This document shows positions 24,995 through 47,219 of a stretch of DNA of 64,000 bases, piece by piece. The translations under genes were made by a program, and so were the position numbers. The stretch spans positions 62,001 through 126,000 of the forward strand of contig JAEUJQ010000056.1 in assembly GCA_016793095.1 (NCBI GenBank), given 5' to 3'. The DNA comes from Myxococcaceae bacterium. GTDB lineage: Bacteria; Myxococcota; Myxococcia; Myxococcales; Myxococcaceae. The notes beneath the pieces are model-generated. The model saw only the letters and a list, made by a program, of their open reading frames with translations. It searched no databases and was not told the DNA's origin. Each line of letters starts with the position of its first letter. Position 1 is the stretch's first letter.

Positions 24995-25735
24995 GTGGAG
25001 CAGGAGCTGACCCGGCAGTCCGATGGCGAGGGCGGTCTGCAGTCGCCGGATGAGGCGGCGGGCCTCGGGCGCGTGCGCAGCCTGCTCATCGAGCTGGAGC
25101 GGACGCCGGCCGACCCCGTGATCGCCCTGGCCTTCAACCGGGCCGTCAGCGCGCTCGCGAAGCAGCCCAGCGCCGAGGTCTTCGGCTTCCTGCGCGAGCT
25201 GAACGAGCTGCCGGTGCTGCGGCAGGCGAAGGACTCGAACGGCTACCCGTGCCGCGCGGCCGTGCTCGCTGCGTGGGTCGAGCTCGGCTACCCGTGGGCG
25301 CTCGAGCTGGCGCCCGAGGATCACGCGTGGCTGCGTGCTCAGACGCCGGGCGCGGGCGCTGGCTGGCTCTCAGTGACGTTCGTGCTCGCGGTGCTCTCGG
25401 CGATCTTCAACGTCGGCGTGAGCGGGCTCCTCGCGTTCGAGTTCCTGTCGCGACCGAGCTGGGTCGAGTGGCTGGTGGTGGTGCCCTTCGCGGCGATGGG
25501 CGCCCACGGCATCGCCACCCTCGCGGCTGCGCAGGCGGGCCTCGACGGCGGACCAGCAGCCGCCGGTCGCCTCAGGGCGCTCGGGTACGCAGGGCTCGTC
25601 GCGCCGGCGGCGGCCCTGGTGCCCGCGGTCATCTCGCTCGAGCTGGGCCTCTGCGTGCTGCTGCTGGGCCTGCCCTTCACGGCGTCGGCCCTCACCGCGT
25701 GGTGGGCGAGCCGGGCGCTCAGTCAGGGCCGGTGA
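24995..25735 (+). CDS. Membrane protein of unknown function
   Basis: 246 residues from a GTG at 24995. Residues 1-110 are soluble (helical; SLLIELERTPADPVIALAFNRAV). The rest has about four hydrophobic segments (WLSVTFVLAVLSAIFNVGVSGLLAF, VEWLVVVPFAAMGAHGIATL, LVAPAAALVPAVISLELGLCVLLLGLPFT) ending AWWASRALSQGR. No recognised family. The last ~130 bp of the gene are repeated in tandem downstream, so its 3' end is copy 1 of an array. Confidence 0.7.
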   Translation: MEQELTRQSDGEGGLQSPDEAAGLGRVRSLLIELERTPADPVIALAFNRAVSALAKQPSAEVFGFLRELNELPVLRQAKDSNGYPCRAAVLAAWVELGYPWALELAPEDHAWLRAQTPGAGAGWLSVTFVLAVLSAIFNVGVSGLLAFEFLSRPSWVEWLVVVPFAAMGAHGIATLAAAQAGLDGGPAAAGRLRALGYAGLVAPAAALVPAVISLELGLCVLLLGLPFTASALTAWWASRALSQGR

Positions 25736-26131
25736 GGAGCTGGTGGCCCTGGTGCCCGCGGGCTTCTCTCTCGAGCTGGGCCGCTGATGCGTGCTGCTGG
25801 GCCGGCCCTTCACGGCGTCGGCCCTCACCGCGTGGTGGGCGAGCCGGGCGCTCAGTCAGCGCCGGTGAGGTGGTGGCGGCCCTGGTGCCCGCGGCCTTCT
25901 CTCTCGAGCTGGGCCGCTGCTGCGTGCTGCTGGGCCGGCCCTTCACGGCGTTGGCCCTCACCGACTGGTGGGTGAGCCAGGCGCCGAGTCAGCGCCGGTG
26001 AGGAGCTGGTGGCCCTGGTGCCCGCGGCCTTCTCGCTCGAGCCGGGCCTCTGCGCGCTGCTGGGCCTGCCCTTCACGGCGTCGGCCCTCACCGCGTGGTG
26101 GGCGAGCCGGGCGCTCAGTCAGCGCTGGTGA
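25603..26131 (+). repeat. Tandem array of gene 3'-end copies (4 x ~133 bp)
   Basis: Copy 1 is the coding 3' end of the membrane-protein gene (stop at 25733-25735). Three more copies follow, each ending in the same CAGCGCCGGTGA-like stop, with stops at 25866-25868, 25999-26001 and 26129-26131, that is periods 133, 133 and 130 bp. Because 133 is not a multiple of 3, each copy lies in a shifted frame and cannot extend the protein. Sequence identity between copies is high (for example TCACGGCGTCGGCCCTCACC is shared by copies 1, 2 and 4). Confidence 0.85.
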
Positions 26132-26146
26132 GGTGAGACTGCGTTC

Positions 26147-26217: not shown

Positions 26218-28398
26218 TCAGGGACGGAACGTCCACGTGGCCTTGACGACGAGGCGCTGCTCCGAGGGCGGCGCGCCGGGCACCTGGAACGCTGTGCGGG
26301 TGTCGGTGAAGACGACGTACAGGAACGACAGCGGCAGGAACTCCCAGGCGAGGCGCGCGTTCGTCAGCCCCACGTTGCCGGCGGTGTCGCGCTGGTAGCT
26401 GCCGATGAGCTGCAGCCTGGGCGTCAGGGCGAGCCGCCCCTCGAGCTGCAGCAGGTGCGTCGACACGCCGCCCGGCCGCACCCCTGCGCCGTCGAAGCGG
26501 TTGAACTCGTAGTTGAGGAACAGGCCGATGTGGGGCAGCGGCGAGAAGCCCACCTGCCCCTGCGCGCGCACGAAGTCGGCGAGGAAGTAGCGCCCGACGC
26601 CGACGTTGCCGCCCGCGGAGAAGAGCCGGCTGTGCTCGCTGTAGGCCGCGACGCCGATGCGGTCGTACGTCGTGCTCCCCGCGGGGAAGGACACGCCCGG
26701 CACCGGCGCGAACGGCGCGTCGAGGACCTGCCAGGTGCGCTGCCCGTACACCCAGCCGCGGTCGCCACCCTCGAGCGTCACCCAGAGGGCCTCGAGGTAC
26801 ACGTTGGCCTCCTGGAAGCGGCCGTCGCGGGCGCTCCACACGGCGCTGGTGTCGAGGAACTGCTGGATCGTGCGCACCCACTTCGGCAGCCACGCCGGCC
26901 GCCAGTCGAGGTACCAGGAGCCGGCGAGGTACAGCGCCTCCTCTCTCGAGACGAAGCCCGAGCGCGAGCGATAGCCCGGTGACAACCCCGAGCCCACCAC
27001 GCCCAATCGGCCCCACGTCCCCTGGAGCGAGGCGCTCACGGAGCCCGCGATGCCGGTGGTGGCTGGGGTGCCGTCATGCCGTTGATCGACGCTGCCCGTC
27101 ACCATCGCGTTGAGCGACACCGGGCCCTTGCGCACGAGCGCGTCGATCACCGGCACCACGTTCGTCGCTCCCGCAGAGGTGCCGTCGAAGTCATGGCGGG
27201 CCACCAGCATGCCGCCCGCGCGGCTCTCACCGAGCAGGTGGTGCGAGTAGCGCGCGACGCCGAAGAGGCTCGACTGTTGCCGGTCCGTCGGCAGCGCGTG
27301 CACCACCATCGCGCCCATGCTGCGCTCAGCCGAGCGGTACACGAAGCGGCCGCCCGCCGAGAGCGGCTGAGGCTGCCCGTTCGACAGGCCGATGGCCCGG
27401 CTGAAGAACGGCTGCACCAACCCGGACGTCATCGTGAAGAGCCCCGCGTTCTCGAGGAAGAACTGCCGCCGCTCGGGGAACAGCACCGAGAAGCGCGAGA
27501 GGTTCACCACCCGTCGATCGACGTCGGTCTCGGCGAAGTCGGTGTTTCCGGTGACGTCGATGATGGCGTTCTCGGTCGGCGCCCACGACACGTCCCCTCC
27601 GGCGTTGGGCCGCACCCCGATGGCGCCGTCACCCACGCGATCGAGGCGCACGATGCCGTAGGGGCGAAGCTGCAGGTTGAGGCCGGCGCGGCTCGTCGGC
27701 GGCTCGGTGAAGGCGAGCTGGCCGGCGTACGGCATGCGGAACGGGCTGAAGTTGCGCGGGAAGGGGCTCCACGCGCTGCGCTCCATGGTGCGGCGGGTCG
27801 CGCGCATGGCGTTGAAGCCCCACACGAGCCGGTCGGGCTCGGTGCGCAGGCTCTTCCACGGGATCAGCAGCTCGACGGTGAAGCCCCGCTCGTCACGCGT
27901 GACCGCCGAGCGCCACACCGTGTCCCACTGGGTCTCCGAGATCTCGTCGTCGATGACCTGCACGTCGTGCTGGCTGCCCCACGGGGTGACGAAGAAGCCG
28001 AAGGCGTTGCGGGCGTCGCCGAGCGGGTCGAGCACCACGCCGAACCAGTCGAAGCCTCGCGAGAGCGAGAAGTCACGCCGCAGATCGGTCTGCTGGATGC
28101 CTCGCGGCCCCGCGTCATCGTCACAGCGCGCGCCCACCGCCAGGCCCTCGGTGGTCGCGATGACCCGCACCCGCGTCGCCAGCACCGCGGGCTTCAGCTG
28201 CTCGGGCTCGACCTGCGTGAACGCTCCCAGGACGGCGGCGCTCGTCCACAGCGGCTCGTCGAGCTGGCCATCGACGACCACGGCAGCGTCGGCACGCGGC
28301 ACGGTCAGCCTCGAGCGCTCTGCCGGAGGCGGGAACGTCTGGGCAGGCGCGCTCGTGCACCACAGGGCGAGCAGGGCGGCGGCGGCGCGGGAGGACAC
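26218..28398 (-). CDS. DUF5916-type outer-membrane protein with N-terminal CBM9-like domain
   Basis: 726 residues from a GTG at 28398 (VSSRAAAALLALWCTSAPAQ, a signal peptide). Residues about 35-220 match a CBM9-like beta-sandwich (DGQLDEPLWTSAAVLGAFTQVEP, TRVRVIATTEGLAVGARCDD, WGFNAMRATRR). The rest is a long beta-barrel of aromatic amphipathic strands (LYLAGSWYLDWRPAWL, LFLNYEFNRFDGAG) ending TWTFRP, as in DUF5916 proteins, which are predicted outer-membrane barrels. Function unknown. The 5' end (start region) is copy 1 of a repeat array that continues upstream. Confidence 0.88.
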   Translation of the reverse strand: MSSRAAAALLALWCTSAPAQTFPPPAERSRLTVPRADAAVVVDGQLDEPLWTSAAVLGAFTQVEPEQLKPAVLATRVRVIATTEGLAVGARCDDDAGPRGIQQTDLRRDFSLSRGFDWFGVVLDPLGDARNAFGFFVTPWGSQHDVQVIDDEISETQWDTVWRSAVTRDERGFTVELLIPWKSLRTEPDRLVWGFNAMRATRRTMERSAWSPFPRNFSPFRMPYAGQLAFTEPPTSRAGLNLQLRPYGIVRLDRVGDGAIGVRPNAGGDVSWAPTENAIIDVTGNTDFAETDVDRRVVNLSRFSVLFPERRQFFLENAGLFTMTSGLVQPFFSRAIGLSNGQPQPLSAGGRFVYRSAERSMGAMVVHALPTDRQQSSLFGVARYSHHLLGESRAGGMLVARHDFDGTSAGATNVVPVIDALVRKGPVSLNAMVTGSVDQRHDGTPATTGIAGSVSASLQGTWGRLGVVGSGLSPGYRSRSGFVSREEALYLAGSWYLDWRPAWLPKWVRTIQQFLDTSAVWSARDGRFQEANVYLEALWVTLEGGDRGWVYGQRTWQVLDAPFAPVPGVSFPAGSTTYDRIGVAAYSEHSRLFSAGGNVGVGRYFLADFVRAQGQVGFSPLPHIGLFLNYEFNRFDGAGVRPGGVSTHLLQLEGRLALTPRLQLIGSYQRDTAGNVGLTNARLAWEFLPLSFLYVVFTDTRTAFQVPGAPPSEQRLVVKATWTFRP

Positions 28399-28873
28399 GG
28401 GCACCGCTGGATAGCGGGCTGCGGCCTCGAACGCACCGACCGAGTCCGCGAACGCACCTCGGGCCGGCGTCGCGGGAGGGCACGGGCACCGCTGAAGAGC
28501 GGGCTGCGGCCTCGAACGCACCGACCGGGTCCGTGAACGCACCTCGGGCCGGCGTCGCGGGGGGCACGGGCACCGCTGAAGAGCGGGCTGCGGCCTCGAA
28601 CGCACCGACCGGGTCCGCGAACGCTCCGGCCGGCGGCGCGGGAGGACACGGGCACCGCTGGAGAGCGGGCTGCGGCCTCGAACGCACCGACCGGGTCCGC
28701 GAACGCACCTCGGGCCGGCGGCGCGGGAGGACACGGGCACCGCTGAAGAGCGGGCTGCGGCCTCGAACGCACCTCGGGCCGACGGCGCGGGAGGGCACGG
28801 GCACCGCTGGAGAGCGGGCTGCGGCCTCGAACGCACCGACCGGGTCCGCGAACGCACCTCGGGCCGACGGTGC
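28389..28873. repeat. Tandem array covering the 5' end of the DUF5916 gene (6 copies, ~84 bp)
   Basis: The shared core GCGGGCTGCGGCCTCGAACG starts at 28414, 28499, 28583, 28665, 28750 and 28814, giving periods 85, 84, 82, 85 and 64 bp (the last unit is shortened). Copy 1 contains the GTG start and first codons of the DUF5916 gene plus its upstream region; the other five carry similar GTG-TCC-TCC-like start copies. No spacers, so not CRISPR. The promoter of the gene must lie in or beyond this array. Confidence 0.85.
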
Positions 28874-29008
28874 GGAGTCTGGGCCCACGACGCGGGCGAG
28901 CGCCGGGCGGCCGCGTGGAGCCGGGGCGCTCTCGAGGCCTGCCGCACCCTGAACGCCGACGACGTCTTCGTGACGCAGGGGTGGCGCCGCGTTCGGCGCG
29001 TCGAAGCC
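28874..29008. other. Intergenic, no gene seen
   Basis: 135 bp between the repeat array and the stop of the UvrD-like helicase gene. Upstream sequence of the DUF5916 gene on the minus strand. I see no convincing gene or signal here. Confidence 0.4.
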
Positions 29009-30877
29009 TCACTCGAGCAATGGGCTCTTCGCGCCAGCCCAGGCGAGCACCAGCCGATGGGACGCGCGGGTCATCGCCGTGTACAGGCCCCGGCGCGCGT
29101 CCTGCGTCAGCCCCCAGGTGCTGGCCGCGGCGTCGGGCAGCACCACCACGTCGAACTCGAGGCCCTTGATCTCCTGCACGCAGGTGACGACCACGCCCGG
29201 CCTGAAGGGGAAGTCGCCGTCGAGCGCCAGCGTGGTGGTGACGCCGCGCAGCCGCTGCTGAACCCGCCTGGCCACTTCGGGCGTGCGGCAGATGACGGCC
29301 ACGCTCGCCGAGCCGTCGTCTCCCACCAGCCCGCGCAGCGCATCGCTGAGCCACACGGAGAGGTGAAATGGCGCGGCGAAGCCAGCCCAGGTGATGGACG
29401 GCGTCGAGGGGACCGCCACGGCGGGGTCGAGCACGTGCCGCGCGAGGTTCGTGACGTCGGGCGGGCACCGGTAGTTCACCCCGAGCCGCACCGTGCGCGC
29501 GCCTGGCACGCCGAGCTCGCGCAGCACGCCGTCCCACCCGGTGAAGACGGCCGTCGCGTCGACCTGCTGGGCCGCGTCGCCAGCGACGATGAAGACGCCG
29601 CCCCGCCGGAGCGCGCGCGCCATCACGGCCAGCTCGATGGGCGCGAACTCCTGCGCCTCGTCGATGAAGACGACGTCATAGGCGCCGAGCGGCATGGGCG
29701 GCTTGTGCTGGGCGTTCGACCGCAACTGCTCGAGCGCGAACAGCACCGCGTGGTCTTCCGCGTCGGCGGAGTTCGCGTCCTCGAGCGGCGTGCCCTCGTC
29801 CAGCCCGCGGCCGTCCACGGCGGTGCGCGCCTCTGCGTCGACGTGCGCGTACTTCAGCTCGGCGGGATCGAGGAACTGCACCTTCGTGTGCTGGGCGATC
29901 GCCTCGATGACGGAGGCGAAGAGGGCGCCGCCCGAGCGTTCGACCACCGGCGTCGTCCAGGCCCGATCGCCGAAGAGGTGCTCCAGGTCCGCGCGGGAGG
30001 CGAGGGCGTGGCCACGCCTCGGGCGATCGTCGTCCTCCAGCGGCTTCGGGTGAGCGCGCACGAAGTCCGCGAGGGAGGGGCGAAGCGCGGGGTGGCGCTT
30101 GAGCTGCACCACCGCCGACGGCGTGTTCTCGCTCTGCCGTCGTGGCAGATCCTTGAAGGCCCGGCGCGCCTCGTCGCTCACCCACTCGTCGTAGGTCCAC
30201 ACGTCGACGTCGCGCACGTCGCGGCGCTCGAGCATGAGGCTGGTGAGCCGGCGGAGGCCGACGGTGGGCACCAGCACCGCGCCCCGGAACCGGCGGTGTG
30301 AGGTCGTCAGCAGCCGCTCGCGCAGGGCGAGCAGCCGGTGCAGCGCGACCGTCGTCTTGCCGAAGCCGGCCTCACCCAGCAGCAGCAGGTGCTCCTGCGA
30401 CGGCAGGTCGACCGCGGCCTGCTGCGCGGGGTCGAGCGTCACCTCGAGCGGTGAGCGGAACGCGTGCCGCGCGTGCCTCGGCCTGCCGGGGATCGACGGA
30501 GGTGGCTCGCCGCTGGTCCAGCCGCCGCCCGTCCGCACGAAGACGCGGTCAGGCGCTTCGACCTTCGACAGCACCCCGCCCTCGAAGGTGAGCAGGTGCT
30601 TCTCGAGCAGCCTGCCCGAGACCGGCCGGCCGTCGACCTCGACCTCGTAGACGTTGCCCTCGTCGGTGGTGAAGAAGACCTCGGCGAGCGGCGCGGCCTC
30701 GGCGTCGACGATGGAGACGTACGCGTCGACCTGGGTCGCGTCCCCGAGGAAGACGTCGGTCACCCGCCTCGACGTCTCGAGCTTGAGGTGGCCGGAGAGC
30801 CTGCGACCGGGCGCGGCCTGGCTCGCGCGTCGAACGGCGTCCTCGAGGCCACGCAGTCGTTCCGTCCACCCGTCCAT
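29009..30877 (-). CDS. UvrD-like superfamily 1 helicase
   Basis: 622 residues. N-terminal region of about 170 residues without a known motif, then motif I GEAGFGKTTVALHRL near residue 195, motif II VVFIDEAQEFAPIEL near 395, motif III VAGDAAQQVD, motif IV-like LGVNYRCPP, motif V EIKGLEFDVVVLPDA and motif VI LYTAMTRASHRLVLAW. This is a UvrD/Rep-type ATPase; the N-terminal part may be a regulatory or substrate-binding domain as in RecD2/HelD-like proteins. ATG at 30877 is preceded by AGGAGAAGGGAG at suitable spacing and is preferred over a longer start at 30913. Confidence 0.88.
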   Translation of the reverse strand: MDGWTERLRGLEDAVRRASQAAPGRRLSGHLKLETSRRVTDVFLGDATQVDAYVSIVDAEAAPLAEVFFTTDEGNVYEVEVDGRPVSGRLLEKHLLTFEGGVLSKVEAPDRVFVRTGGGWTSGEPPPSIPGRPRHARHAFRSPLEVTLDPAQQAAVDLPSQEHLLLLGEAGFGKTTVALHRLLALRERLLTTSHRRFRGAVLVPTVGLRRLTSLMLERRDVRDVDVWTYDEWVSDEARRAFKDLPRRQSENTPSAVVQLKRHPALRPSLADFVRAHPKPLEDDDRPRRGHALASRADLEHLFGDRAWTTPVVERSGGALFASVIEAIAQHTKVQFLDPAELKYAHVDAEARTAVDGRGLDEGTPLEDANSADAEDHAVLFALEQLRSNAQHKPPMPLGAYDVVFIDEAQEFAPIELAVMARALRRGGVFIVAGDAAQQVDATAVFTGWDGVLRELGVPGARTVRLGVNYRCPPDVTNLARHVLDPAVAVPSTPSITWAGFAAPFHLSVWLSDALRGLVGDDGSASVAVICRTPEVARRVQQRLRGVTTTLALDGDFPFRPGVVVTCVQEIKGLEFDVVVLPDAAASTWGLTQDARRGLYTAMTRASHRLVLAWAGAKSPLLE

Positions 30878-30993
30878 CGAAGCGCGACTCCCTTCTCCTG
30901 AGGGCGCCGTCATAGCGGGCCCGGGCGCCTGAGGCCTGCGTGATGATGCCCGGCCGCGCCAGTCGACCCGGCGTGCCGTATGGTGAACAGCCC

Positions 30994-32298
30994 GTGACGT
31001 CTCGACTCGACCAGTTCCTGACGGGCTCACCCTGGCGGCAGTACGTCTACGGCTACCCGCACAAGACGGCGTACCGCGCGTTCGCCGAGCCGAGGCCGCT
31101 CGAGGCCGTGTGGGCGAACGAGCGCCCCGACACCCGCTTCCTCTACGTGCACGTGCCCTTCTGCGAGCTGCGCTGCGGCTTCTGCAACCTCTTCACCACG
31201 GCGAACCCGGCGGACGACGTGGTGGAGCGCTTCCTCGCGCAGCTCCTGGTCGAGGCGAAGGAGACGGCCGCGGTCGTGGGCACGCGGCGCTACACGCGCG
31301 CGGCCATCGGCGGGGGCACGCCGACGTACCTGAGCGCGGGTCAGCTCGAGCGGCTGCTGGGCGTGCTGCGCGAGGTGATGGGGTTCGGGGCGGCGCCGCT
31401 GTCGGTGGAGCTCTCTCCGGCGACGCTGACGCGCGAGAAGCTCGCGGTGTTGAGCGTGGCCACGCGGCTGTCGCTCGGCGTGCAGAGCTTCGTCGAGCCC
31501 GAGCTCGCCAGCCTGAGACGCCCCCAGGCCACGCGCGACGTGCTGGGCGCGCTCGAGCTCATCCGTGAGCACTCGCGGGCGCACCTCAACATCGACCTCA
31601 TCTACGGCATGGAGGGGCAGACGCCTGCGTCGCTCGTCGGCAGCCTCGAGGCGGCGCTGCGATGGAGGCCCGAAGAGCTCTACCTGTACCCGCTCTACGT
31701 GCGGCCGCTCACCTTCCTCGGCAAACACGCGGCGTGGGACGACCACCGCTTGACCCTCTACCGCGTGGCTCGGGACTGGCTGGGCTCACGCGGCTACCGG
31801 CAGCGCTCCCTGCGCGTCTTCGTGAGAGCCGACGTCGGCGAGGTGGAGCTGCCCGAGTACCACGCCGAAGACGACGGCATGGTGGGCCTGGGCGTGGGCG
31901 CGCGCTCGTACACGAAGGCCCTGCACTACGCGCACGACTTCGCGGTGGCCCCGGGCGCGGTGCGCAGCATCATCGACGACTACCTCGCTCGCCCAGCGGC
32001 CTCGTTCCAGGTCGCGCGCTCGGGCTTCGAGCTCGACGTCGCGGAGCAGCAGCGCCGTTGGGTGCTGCTCTCGTTGCTCGGTCCGGGGAGCGACGGCGGC
32101 GCGTTCGCCAGCCGCTTCGGGGTGCCCCTGCTCGAGGCGCTGCCCCAGCTTCGGCAGCTGGTGAGCGAAGAGCTCGCCGCGTGGCAGGGCGAGACCCTGG
32201 CGCTCACGCCGCGTGGGCTCGAGTGGAGCGACGCGCTGGGCCCCTGGCTCTTCTCGTCAGAGGTCGAGGCCCGCATGAGCGCCTGGGAGGCCCGGTGA
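30994..32298 (+). CDS. STM4012-family radical SAM protein
   Basis: 434 residues from a GTG at 30994. Radical SAM motif CELRCGFC (CxxxCxxC) in HVPFCELRCGFCNLF near residue 58, then GGGTPTYLS, and SLGVQSFVEPELASLRRPQ plus HLNIDLIYGMEGQT, the arrangement of coproporphyrinogen-III-oxidase (HemN)-like proteins. N-terminal YVYGYPHKTAYR is the mark of the STM4012 family, named from Salmonella. Reaction unknown. The stop overlaps the next gene start by 4 nt (GTGA), so it is coupled to the STM4011-family radical SAM gene. Cytoplasmic. Confidence 0.88.
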   Translation: MTSRLDQFLTGSPWRQYVYGYPHKTAYRAFAEPRPLEAVWANERPDTRFLYVHVPFCELRCGFCNLFTTANPADDVVERFLAQLLVEAKETAAVVGTRRYTRAAIGGGTPTYLSAGQLERLLGVLREVMGFGAAPLSVELSPATLTREKLAVLSVATRLSLGVQSFVEPELASLRRPQATRDVLGALELIREHSRAHLNIDLIYGMEGQTPASLVGSLEAALRWRPEELYLYPLYVRPLTFLGKHAAWDDHRLTLYRVARDWLGSRGYRQRSLRVFVRADVGEVELPEYHAEDDGMVGLGVGARSYTKALHYAHDFAVAPGAVRSIIDDYLARPAASFQVARSGFELDVAEQQRRWVLLSLLGPGSDGGAFASRFGVPLLEALPQLRQLVSEELAAWQGETLALTPRGLEWSDALGPWLFSSEVEARMSAWEAR

Positions 32299-44090: not shown

Positions 44091-44179
44091 CGTGCCTTCC
44101 TGGTCTCCGGCGAGACGCGCGAGGCACGCGTGCAAAGTCTTCGCGGTGAGGGCGACCGGGCGATGGCTGCTCGGCCGCC

Positions 44180-44400
44180 GTCACAAGCGTTGAGCTCGAG
44201 CGAGAAGTCGGCAGGCCGGCCAGGCAGCCCGGCTCCTCGGCGTCAGAAGCGTTGAGCTCGAGCCAGAAGCCACCACGTGACGGCGGAGCCGCCCGGCTCC
44301 CCGGCGTCAGAGGCGTTGAGCTCGAGCCCGAAGTCAGCGCGTGACGTCGGAGCCGCGCGGCTCGCCGGTGTCACCTCAGAAGCCGGCGCTGAGCTCGAGC
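44180..44400. repeat. Tandem copies of the TonB receptor 3' end (4 copies, ~62-73 bp)
   Basis: The core TGAGCTCGAG occurs at 44191, 44253, 44317 and 44390 (the last, with CTGAGCTCGAGCCAGAA, is the coding 3' end of the receptor). Read on the minus strand the copies look like the terminal codons FWLEL plus a stop-like TTCTGA, with small deletions that break frame. A non-coding array behind the gene stop. Confidence 0.8.
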
Positions 44401-47219
44401 CAGAAGGTGCGGCCGTACTGCGGAAGCAGGTTCGCGCTCACCTCGCTCTGCACTGGCAGCAGGACGCGCGAGTCGAGGAGGTTCTGAACGCCGGCGAAGT
44501 AGCGCACCGGCCCGTAATCGCCCGACAGCCCGAAGTTGAGGAGCAGCGCCTCGCCAGTGGCCGTGGCCGTTGCCGAGGTCCGTCGCCCTGACTGGTACGT
44601 CGCCTGGCTCGACAGCCGCACGAGGCCTTCCTTCAGGGGGATCATCGCGCGTGCCGAGGCGAGGTGCTGCGGGTAGGGCGGCGCGTCGCTCCCGCCGGGT
44701 CCGCCGAGCATCACGAACGAGTACGTGCCCTCGACGAGCGTGAAGCGCCCCGGCTGCCATCGCAGCTGCGCCTCAGCGCCCAGCGCCGTCAGGCCTCGCG
44801 TGGTGTTCGAGTAGACGAAGCACTGCCGGGCGCCGCCCGCGCAGGCTGGCGGGTCGGACTCTTCCTGGTTGAGCACCACGAGCCGGTCGATGAGGTTGTA
44901 GTAGCCGCCGAGCGAGGCGCGGAGCTCGGGCGTGAAGTTGTGAGAGTGCTCGAGCTCGAAGGTGGTGATGTACTCGGGCGTGAGCGTTCCCGGCAGCGGC
45001 GCCCGCTGCGTCGCGAGCCCGTCGCTGAACGACAGCTCGTAGACGGTCGGCGCGCGGAAGGCGCGGCCCGCCACCAGCTTGGTGACGCCCGACTCGTACA
45101 GCCGCGCGACCACCGCGCCACGCGGCGAGAGCGCGAACTCCCCGACGTCGTTGTACTTGTCCACGCGCACGCCGGCCTGGAGGAAGAGCCGGTTGTTCCA
45201 CAGCTGCCACTCGTCCATCAGCGTGCCGGAGAAGAAGAAGCGGGTGGTGTTCTGGGGCGCCTGAAAGCCCTCTGGCTGCTGGTACGCGAGCTGGGCCTGG
45301 CCCTCGACGCCCAGCGTCAGCCGGTTGCCGTCGAAGAGGAAGAGGCCGCCGCGGACCTCGGCCGAGAACCAGTCACCGCCGCCGATGTCGGTGGTGCGAA
45401 ACGACCCGCCGTCGTCCCCGACCTTCGCGTAGTAGCCGCGGTATCGGCTCGCGTCGTAGGCGGCCCGCGCGGTGAGCGTGAAGCGCGAGGCGAACTCCTG
45501 CTCGAAGCGAAGCTCGGCGAAGCCGCGCGCGTCGGTGTACTCCGTGCCCGGAACGCCGAAGGCAGCGCCGAGCGGCGCGGTGGGCACCTGCTTCTTGCGC
45601 TGGTTCCACTTCGCGGTGAGCGACAGGCCCTTCCACCTGGCCTTGGCGTTCGCGCCGATCGACCGTTCGTCGTCGAGGCCCCGCACCACGCCAGCCGTCC
45701 CCAGGTCGGTGAGCTCTGCGCCCGTCGCCGTGAACCCCGCGACCGAGAGGATGGCGGACGCCTCGTCGTTTCCCAGCGAGCCGGTGACGCGCGCCTTCAC
45801 GCCGCCCACGCCGCCGGCCCCCACCACGCCCTCGACGTTGCGGTTCGTGAGGCGAGCGCGTGGCACCACGTTGATGACGCCGAAGAAGCCACCGCTGCCG
45901 AAGAGCAGCGAGGCCGGGCCCCGCACCACCTCGATGCGATCGACCTCGGCCAGGTCGACGTCGAAGTCCCTCGCCGAGAAGCCCTGACCCGCCCACACGT
46001 CGTTCACCGGGTGCCCATCGAAGAGGATGAGGATGCGTGTGTTGAGGTCGCCCGGCGGCGTGAAGCCGCGAATGCCGATGTACGTGTAGATGCGATCGTC
46101 GGTGAAGAAGAGCCCGCGCACCGCCCGCAGCGCCTCGGGCAGGGTCTGGTAGCCGAAGGCCTGGATCTCCTCGCGCGTGATGACGGTGATCGACGCTGGC
46201 GCCTGGTCGACCGAGAGCAGCTGCTTGCTGGCGGCGGTCACCTTCGGCGGCGCGTAGCGGAGGTCGGCGGCGATGCGCAGCTCCTGATCCGCGGTGACCT
46301 CGACCGTCTGCAGGAAAGGCGCGACGTCGGTCGCGGTGATCTCGAGCTGGTGCTTGCCCTCGGTGAGGTTCAGCACCACCGGCGTGAAGCCCGAGTCCTT
46401 GCCGTCGACGCGCACCACCGCCGCGTCGCGGTTGGCGGTGACGATCACCTTGCCGGTGGGCTTCGGCTTCTCGGGCAGCGACACCTTCGCGCTCACCTGG
46501 GCGTCGGCTCTCACGTCGACGAGCACCTGCTGCGGCAGGTACCCCGGCGCCTGCACGAGGAAGAGGCGCTGGCCGGGCGGCAGGGTCAGCGTCGCGGGCA
46601 GCCTGCCCAGCTCGGGTCCATCGGCCGTCTCGCGCACCACTGCCCCCGCGGGCGTGCCGGTCAGCTCGACGGCGCCGACGATGCGCGACAGCTCGACCGT
46701 CACCTTCGCCTCGCGGCCCTTCACGGCCGTCACCTTCGCCTGCGCCGGTCGGAAGCCCTCGGCCTTCACCAGCACCGTGTGCGCGCCGGGCTTCACCGCC
46801 ACCGTCTGCGGCGTCTTCCCGCGGCTGCCGAGGTCTTCGCGATCGACGAACAGCTCGCCCTCGGTGGGCGTGGCCGTCACCGTCACCAGCGCGACCTGCG
46901 GCGAGAGCCGGGCGAGCGCGGCCTTCACGTCCTTGCGGTCGTCGGCGGGCAGGGTGGGGTCGACGAAGAGATCGTGCCAGTAGCGGTACGCCTCGTCGGG
47001 CCGGTCGAGCGCCTCGTAGCAGCGCGCGATGTTGAACAGCACGTTGCGGTTCGGCACCAGCCGGTACGAGAGGAAGTAGCTCGACAGCGCGGCCTCGTAG
47101 TCGCGCTTCGTGTACGCCTGCACGCCGCGCGAGAAGGCGATGTCGGCCTCGTCAGCGGTGTTGTCGGCCAGCACCGGGGCCGTGAAGAGCAGCACCACCG
47201 AGACCGAGAGCGCGCGCAC
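44376..47219 (-). CDS. TonB-dependent receptor with TPR and PEGA domains
   Basis: 947 residues. Signal peptide MRALSVSVVLLFTAPVLA. Residues about 25-100 are TPR-like (YTKRDYEAALSSYFLSYRLVPNRNVLFNIARCYEALDR). Three PEGA-type beta-sandwich repeats follow (GELFVDREDLGSRGKTPQTV; GTPAGAVVRETADG; NRDAAVVRVDGKDSGFTPVVLNL). The plug domain starts near 330 (APASITVITREEIQAFGYQTLPEALRAVRG) with VDRIEVVRGPASLLFGSGGFFGVINVV, then a long barrel ending with aromatic FWLELSAGF. Energised uptake across the outer membrane, substrate unknown. Divergent from the cytochrome/oxidoreductase genes, 167 bp apart. Confidence 0.93.
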   Translation of the reverse strand: MRALSVSVVLLFTAPVLADNTADEADIAFSRGVQAYTKRDYEAALSSYFLSYRLVPNRNVLFNIARCYEALDRPDEAYRYWHDLFVDPTLPADDRKDVKAALARLSPQVALVTVTATPTEGELFVDREDLGSRGKTPQTVAVKPGAHTVLVKAEGFRPAQAKVTAVKGREAKVTVELSRIVGAVELTGTPAGAVVRETADGPELGRLPATLTLPPGQRLFLVQAPGYLPQQVLVDVRADAQVSAKVSLPEKPKPTGKVIVTANRDAAVVRVDGKDSGFTPVVLNLTEGKHQLEITATDVAPFLQTVEVTADQELRIAADLRYAPPKVTAASKQLLSVDQAPASITVITREEIQAFGYQTLPEALRAVRGLFFTDDRIYTYIGIRGFTPPGDLNTRILILFDGHPVNDVWAGQGFSARDFDVDLAEVDRIEVVRGPASLLFGSGGFFGVINVVPRARLTNRNVEGVVGAGGVGGVKARVTGSLGNDEASAILSVAGFTATGAELTDLGTAGVVRGLDDERSIGANAKARWKGLSLTAKWNQRKKQVPTAPLGAAFGVPGTEYTDARGFAELRFEQEFASRFTLTARAAYDASRYRGYYAKVGDDGGSFRTTDIGGGDWFSAEVRGGLFLFDGNRLTLGVEGQAQLAYQQPEGFQAPQNTTRFFFSGTLMDEWQLWNNRLFLQAGVRVDKYNDVGEFALSPRGAVVARLYESGVTKLVAGRAFRAPTVYELSFSDGLATQRAPLPGTLTPEYITTFELEHSHNFTPELRASLGGYYNLIDRLVVLNQEESDPPACAGGARQCFVYSNTTRGLTALGAEAQLRWQPGRFTLVEGTYSFVMLGGPGGSDAPPYPQHLASARAMIPLKEGLVRLSSQATYQSGRRTSATATATGEALLLNFGLSGDYGPVRYFAGVQNLLDSRVLLPVQSEVSANLLPQYGRTFWLELSAGF

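Follow-up and report, generated by a model that had tools for sequence, protein, structure and literature searches.

Why is the start region of a gene, leader and initial codons together, repeated in tandem directly upstream of that gene, and does each copy act as a promoter? The question arises in the window, by which we mean the whole 64,000-nucleotide stretch of Myxococcaceae DNA that was analysed. Here, a tandem array of six unit copies is located on the minus strand, at approximately 28380–28865, upstream of a gene of the DUF5916 family.

Structure and conservation of the repeated start region

The DUF5916 gene (26218–28398, minus strand) matches Pfam PF19313 with an E value of 1.3e-11, in agreement with the initial annotation. 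We infer its start codon, GTG at 28398, from congeners. The upstream gene (29009–31030, minus strand) encodes a UvrD/HelD-like helicase (PF13538, E 6.5e-11); the HelD model scores 70 bits, below its cut-off of 419. An STM4012-family radical SAM gene is found at 30940–32298 (NF006067, 513 bits) and is followed by further ORFs.

Between the DUF5916 and helicase genes, TRF reports a repeat at 28380–28773 with a period of 85 bp, 4.7 copies, 93% matches and a score of 690. An overlapping TRF row has a period of 64 bp and reaches 28837. The best TRF score among 200 dinucleotide shuffles of positions 28300–28960 was 78. Using boundaries that are our own cut of the minus strand, copy 1 (28781–28865, 85 bp) is followed by copy 2 (28717–28780, 64 bp), copy 3 (28632–28716, 85 bp), copy 4 (28551–28631, 81 bp), copy 5 (28466–28550, 85 bp) and a gene-proximal copy (28380–28465) that is joined to the gene. 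The shortness of copy 2 reflects 21 bp missing between two GGTGCGTTCG words. Pairwise ungapped identity between the copies is 93–98%. All six contain GTG-CCC-GTG, and GTGCCCGTG occurs six times, with the first base of the second GTG at 28798, 28734, 28649, 28567, 28483 and 28398. Thus, the earlier description of six copies of about 84 bp, each with the gene start region, holds for all but the single 64-bp unit. As in a satellite, the copies are arranged head to tail and the unit exceeds 30 nt. The array lies outside coding sequence, upstream of the inferred start, and unit lengths of 85, 64 and 85 bp are not multiples of three (one, of 81 bp, is). The unrepeated remainder of the gap (28866–29008) extends to the helicase stop codon and contains no TA.

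The DUF5916 gene was found in all six congeners, with 75–81% identity. By synteny, the helicase neighbour is kept in three of these (G001, G003 and G005); G002, G004 and G006 have other genes beside it. The gap between the two genes is 610 bp here versus 41 bp (G001), 40 bp (G003) and 143 bp (G005), and this lengthening is the main effect of the array that can be stated with certainty. Each of the three congener gaps holds a single unit-like segment, consisting of GTGCGTTTCG (GTGCCTTTCG in G001), then CTATCC or CTATGG, and then GTG. Since one such segment is present in these gaps, the unit is most likely, judging from sequence, an ancestral promoter and start segment that was multiplied in this lineage.

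When the 8.81-Mb genome was searched with a 101-bp unit query, the only matches were the six places in the array, which rules out a dispersed or mobile repeat. The whole array was also used to search 60 genomes (this one and 59 relatives; E ≤ 0.001), with at most 10 candidates scored per genome. Matches came from this genome and 13 others. The matches in those 13 were pieces of 27–85 bases, none of them from the six congeners. No similar array was found among the matches listed for this query in the 59 relatives, the six congeners included.

Candidate promoter elements and start codons across the copies

The gene-proximal copy carries the leader, a likely −10 element (TATCCA) and GTG-CCC-GTG. 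TATCCA is positioned 15 nt before the GTG at 28398 and contributes the TA at 28412–28413, the only TA in the interval 28376–29008. At the same hexamer position, the distal copies have TCTCCA (copies 1 and 3) or TCTTCA (copies 2, 4 and 5). Promoter elements are thus not found in each copy; the inferred −10 TA is confined to the proximal one. The A-to-C change shared by the five distal copies may have arisen once and been inherited, and so argues only weakly that selection silenced them.

A TAT also precedes the inferred DUF5916 start in five congeners, by 15 nt (G002 and G004), 16 nt (G003 and G005) or 17 nt (G001); no TAT was present in G006. A scan of 28300–29050 for the σ70 consensus gave no sites, and a terminator scan also gave none. 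With the σ70 scan empty, and with the proximal TATCCA and all five congener hexamers lacking the final T of TANNNT, the probable promoter role of the proximal copy depends on conservation and position.

TA dinucleotides were counted upstream of 682 predicted genes of this genome, with the first start codon taken for each. There were 45 at −12, 17 at −13, 17 at −14 and 23 at −15, compared with a mean of 6.6 per position. In passages of PMC3160421, a TA peak upstream of start codons is read as a sign of leaderless genes. As in the bacterial genes described there, TA occurs some 12–15 nt before the start, both in the proximal copy and more generally across this genome; unlike the TANNNT of those genes, TATCCA does not end in T. 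The peak at 12–15 nt suggests that a sizeable share of genes in this myxobacterial genus is probably leaderless. The candidate −35 sequence GTGCGTT was not enriched before TA-led genes (GTGCG in 1 of 47, TGCGT in 0 of 47), and TTGAC preceded none of 47 TANNNT-led genes pooled from G000 and G005.

Counted outward from the gene, the second GTGs of the five distal copies fall in frames 1, 1, 2, 0 and 1 with respect to its reading frame. Because the frames differ (0 once, 1 three times and 2 once), these codons are not equivalent starts. The initial annotation proposed several candidate promoters or start sites. Leader, first codons and GTGs are indeed repeated; the promoter is probably not multiplied, with the −10 TA in the proximal copy only, and the distal GTGs are spread over all three frames. 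More than one promoter is not the reading that the sequence favours.

Arrays elsewhere in the genome

We sampled 1,185,512 bases of this genome, including the window, and 1,531,705 bases of nine other Myxococcales genomes, in stretches chosen by contig number and position and not at random. The nine comprise four congeners (G001, G003, G005 and G006) and five genomes from outside the genus (G012, G016, G028, G033 and G045). Arrays were counted if the TRF score was at least 100 and the period at least 40, keeping the best of any overlapping rows. Of 58 long-unit arrays in this genome, 16 have a period not divisible by three; three of the 16 come from the window, which was not randomly chosen, and the other 13 from 1.12 Mb. 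Conversely, none of the 27 long-unit arrays in the nine other genomes was of non-codon length, a result that includes congener assemblies whose fragmentation may hide arrays, although in-frame arrays were nonetheless detected in them. The count remained zero at score thresholds of 80, 150, 200 and 300. For 16 of 58 against 0 of 27, Fisher's p is 0.0019; by sequence length, p is 1.7e-6, and against the five non-congeners alone, with assemblies of 1–3 contigs each, it is 4e-4. If the sampled rate holds, 16 arrays in 1.19 Mb correspond to approximately 120 non-codon-length arrays across 8.81 Mb.

Fifteen of the 16 arrays, those scoring at least 150, were placed using our own ORF finder (the sixteenth, L174 11403, was left unplaced). 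Five are at gene 3′ ends, one is the 5′ end array described above, nine are intergenic and none is inside a gene. The script marks the six-copy array as within an ORF because an open frame passes through it. The arrays that touch or lap 3′ ends are at window 25612, window 44175, L057 16137, L170 2139 and L177 11663. A tandem duplication within a gene is removed unless it is in frame. Hence, arrays in gaps and at gene ends can be explained, since those at gene ends leave the gene whole. The unusual feature of this genome is the number of such arrays and not their location.

Two of the 3′ end arrays are in the window. That at 25612–26133 has a 133-bp unit repeated 3.9 times, in which the 3′ terminal codons of the gene at 24995–25735 (plus strand), stop codon included, are copied. 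No such array was seen at homologues of this gene in four congeners (L211–L214), which are 43–46% identical and may be other loci. The array at 44175–44373 comprises 3.1 copies of a 64-bp unit, and every copy holds, as read by eye, a degenerate version of the final codons and stop of a 947-aa gene at 44376–47219 (minus strand), the product of which we take to resemble a TonB-dependent receptor. No array was seen at this gene in the congener G005 (L106).

The 16 arrays have no common sequence, in that no 8- to 10-mers were shared beyond the level of random windows. Matches outside an array's own sequence formed two groups, L089 19415 with L170 4028 and L086 5 with L170. In the latter, the match is between L086 5 and the end of L170, and these two stretches adjoin on the contig. 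The arrays at L089 19415–19679 and L170 4028–4230 lie apart on a single contig; their units are 70–80% alike in inverted orientation, and they are perhaps a small dispersed family.

Profile matches place MutS and RecJ in this genome (35 genomes each, this one included). SbcD is below cut-off here and in five of the six congeners, and above it in 13 of 35 genomes. SbcC is below cut-off in all 35, with strong partial matches where SbcD is present and E 1e-4 here. SbcCD may have been lost in most of the genus: this genome and five of the six congeners combine SbcD below cut-off with SbcC at only E 1e-4, compared with clear matches in G002 and several other family members. We rejected repair-gene loss as the cause of the arrays. 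The congener G005 looks alike, yet has no non-codon arrays in 0.6 Mb, and the state of SbcCD therefore does not explain the difference.

Origin of the array and its significance

We favour, with moderate confidence, mainly non-adaptive local tandem duplication in a repeat-rich lineage, leaving a single working promoter; neutrality would be a feature of this process. A segment across the short helicase–DUF5916 gap, carrying the initial codons of DUF5916 and what is likely a leaderless promoter, would have been duplicated in tandem until six copies were reached, perhaps by slippage or unequal exchange. A duplication across one gene end would keep the gene intact and so be tolerated. Since the five distal copies have no −10 TA, the proximal copy alone probably drives DUF5916, from a transcript that would be leaderless or nearly so. 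The array would then be one case among the excess of mutually unrelated, non-codon-length arrays at gaps and gene ends in this species.

Alternatively, the array could be a promoter repeat, varying in copy number within the population and tuning DUF5916 expression, as at lpdA of M. tuberculosis. The initial annotation's idea resembles this type. According to passages of PMC12817950, repeats of this type differ in copy number, and four copies at lpdA give 12.5-fold the expression of one. The M. tuberculosis repeats (dop, lpdA and cysG) resemble the present array in unit size and also lie immediately before a gene, and the unit here likewise spans the region directly before the start together with the first codons. 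However, five of the six copies here are without the −10 TA and, as far as sequence can tell, do not look like promoters, and the copies have diverged by 2–7% and by indels, which argues that the array was not freshly expanded as a whole. We consider such tuning possible but unlikely. A regulator binding the GGTGCGTTCG words, as candidate sites gathering upstream of the promoter, appears more doubtful. The word has nine exact copies in the array, and GTGCGTTTCG precedes TAT in three congeners, exactly in G003 and G005 and with a single mismatch in G001. Beyond the array, the word was counted 10 times in 1.19 Mb, with three occurrences intergenic against a non-genic share of 0.185, giving little sign of a regulon, and by eye it is missing from G002 and G004.

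Tandem arrays are difficult to assemble and this genome is in 93 contigs, so the array could have been created or inflated in assembly; the private substitutions and indels in its copies are unlike a false expansion, which makes such an error very improbable, although the exact copy number could nonetheless be wrong. That the array is translated, as an in-frame N-terminal extension of a 909-aa protein starting at 28947, we find scarcely credible. A frame is open throughout the array, but units of 85, 81 and 64 bp shift the frame at nearly each copy, several frames carry ORFs here because the DNA is 78% GC, and the congener starts adjoin a signal-peptide-like segment.

The arrays of this genome have their closest counterpart in the satellites of M. 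ruminantium (Methanobrevibacter), which are also scattered and in part non-coding. In passages of PMC6749651, these are likewise many unrelated long-unit arrays across one genome, with a large non-codon share. Passages on M. ruminantium in that source do not mention arrays copying gene ends or promoters, unlike the situation here, and the present host is a myxobacterium whose nearest sampled relatives lack the non-codon class. Among titles and abstract openings in the literature, we recognised no account of gene-end arrays in myxobacteria. It is conceivable, albeit rather speculative, that this species has undergone a lineage-specific burst of local tandem duplication, perhaps from a changed DNA-maintenance function. 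The arrays would then go on reshaping gene ends, making gaps, promoters and terminators variable in copy number from one member of the population to another.

Repeated start regions should not simply be counted as repeated promoters, since a single base change may be enough to silence a copy. The genome is unusually rich in non-coding tandem arrays, of a class absent from the sampled relatives, and offers a natural case for studying what allows arrays to grow in dense genomes.
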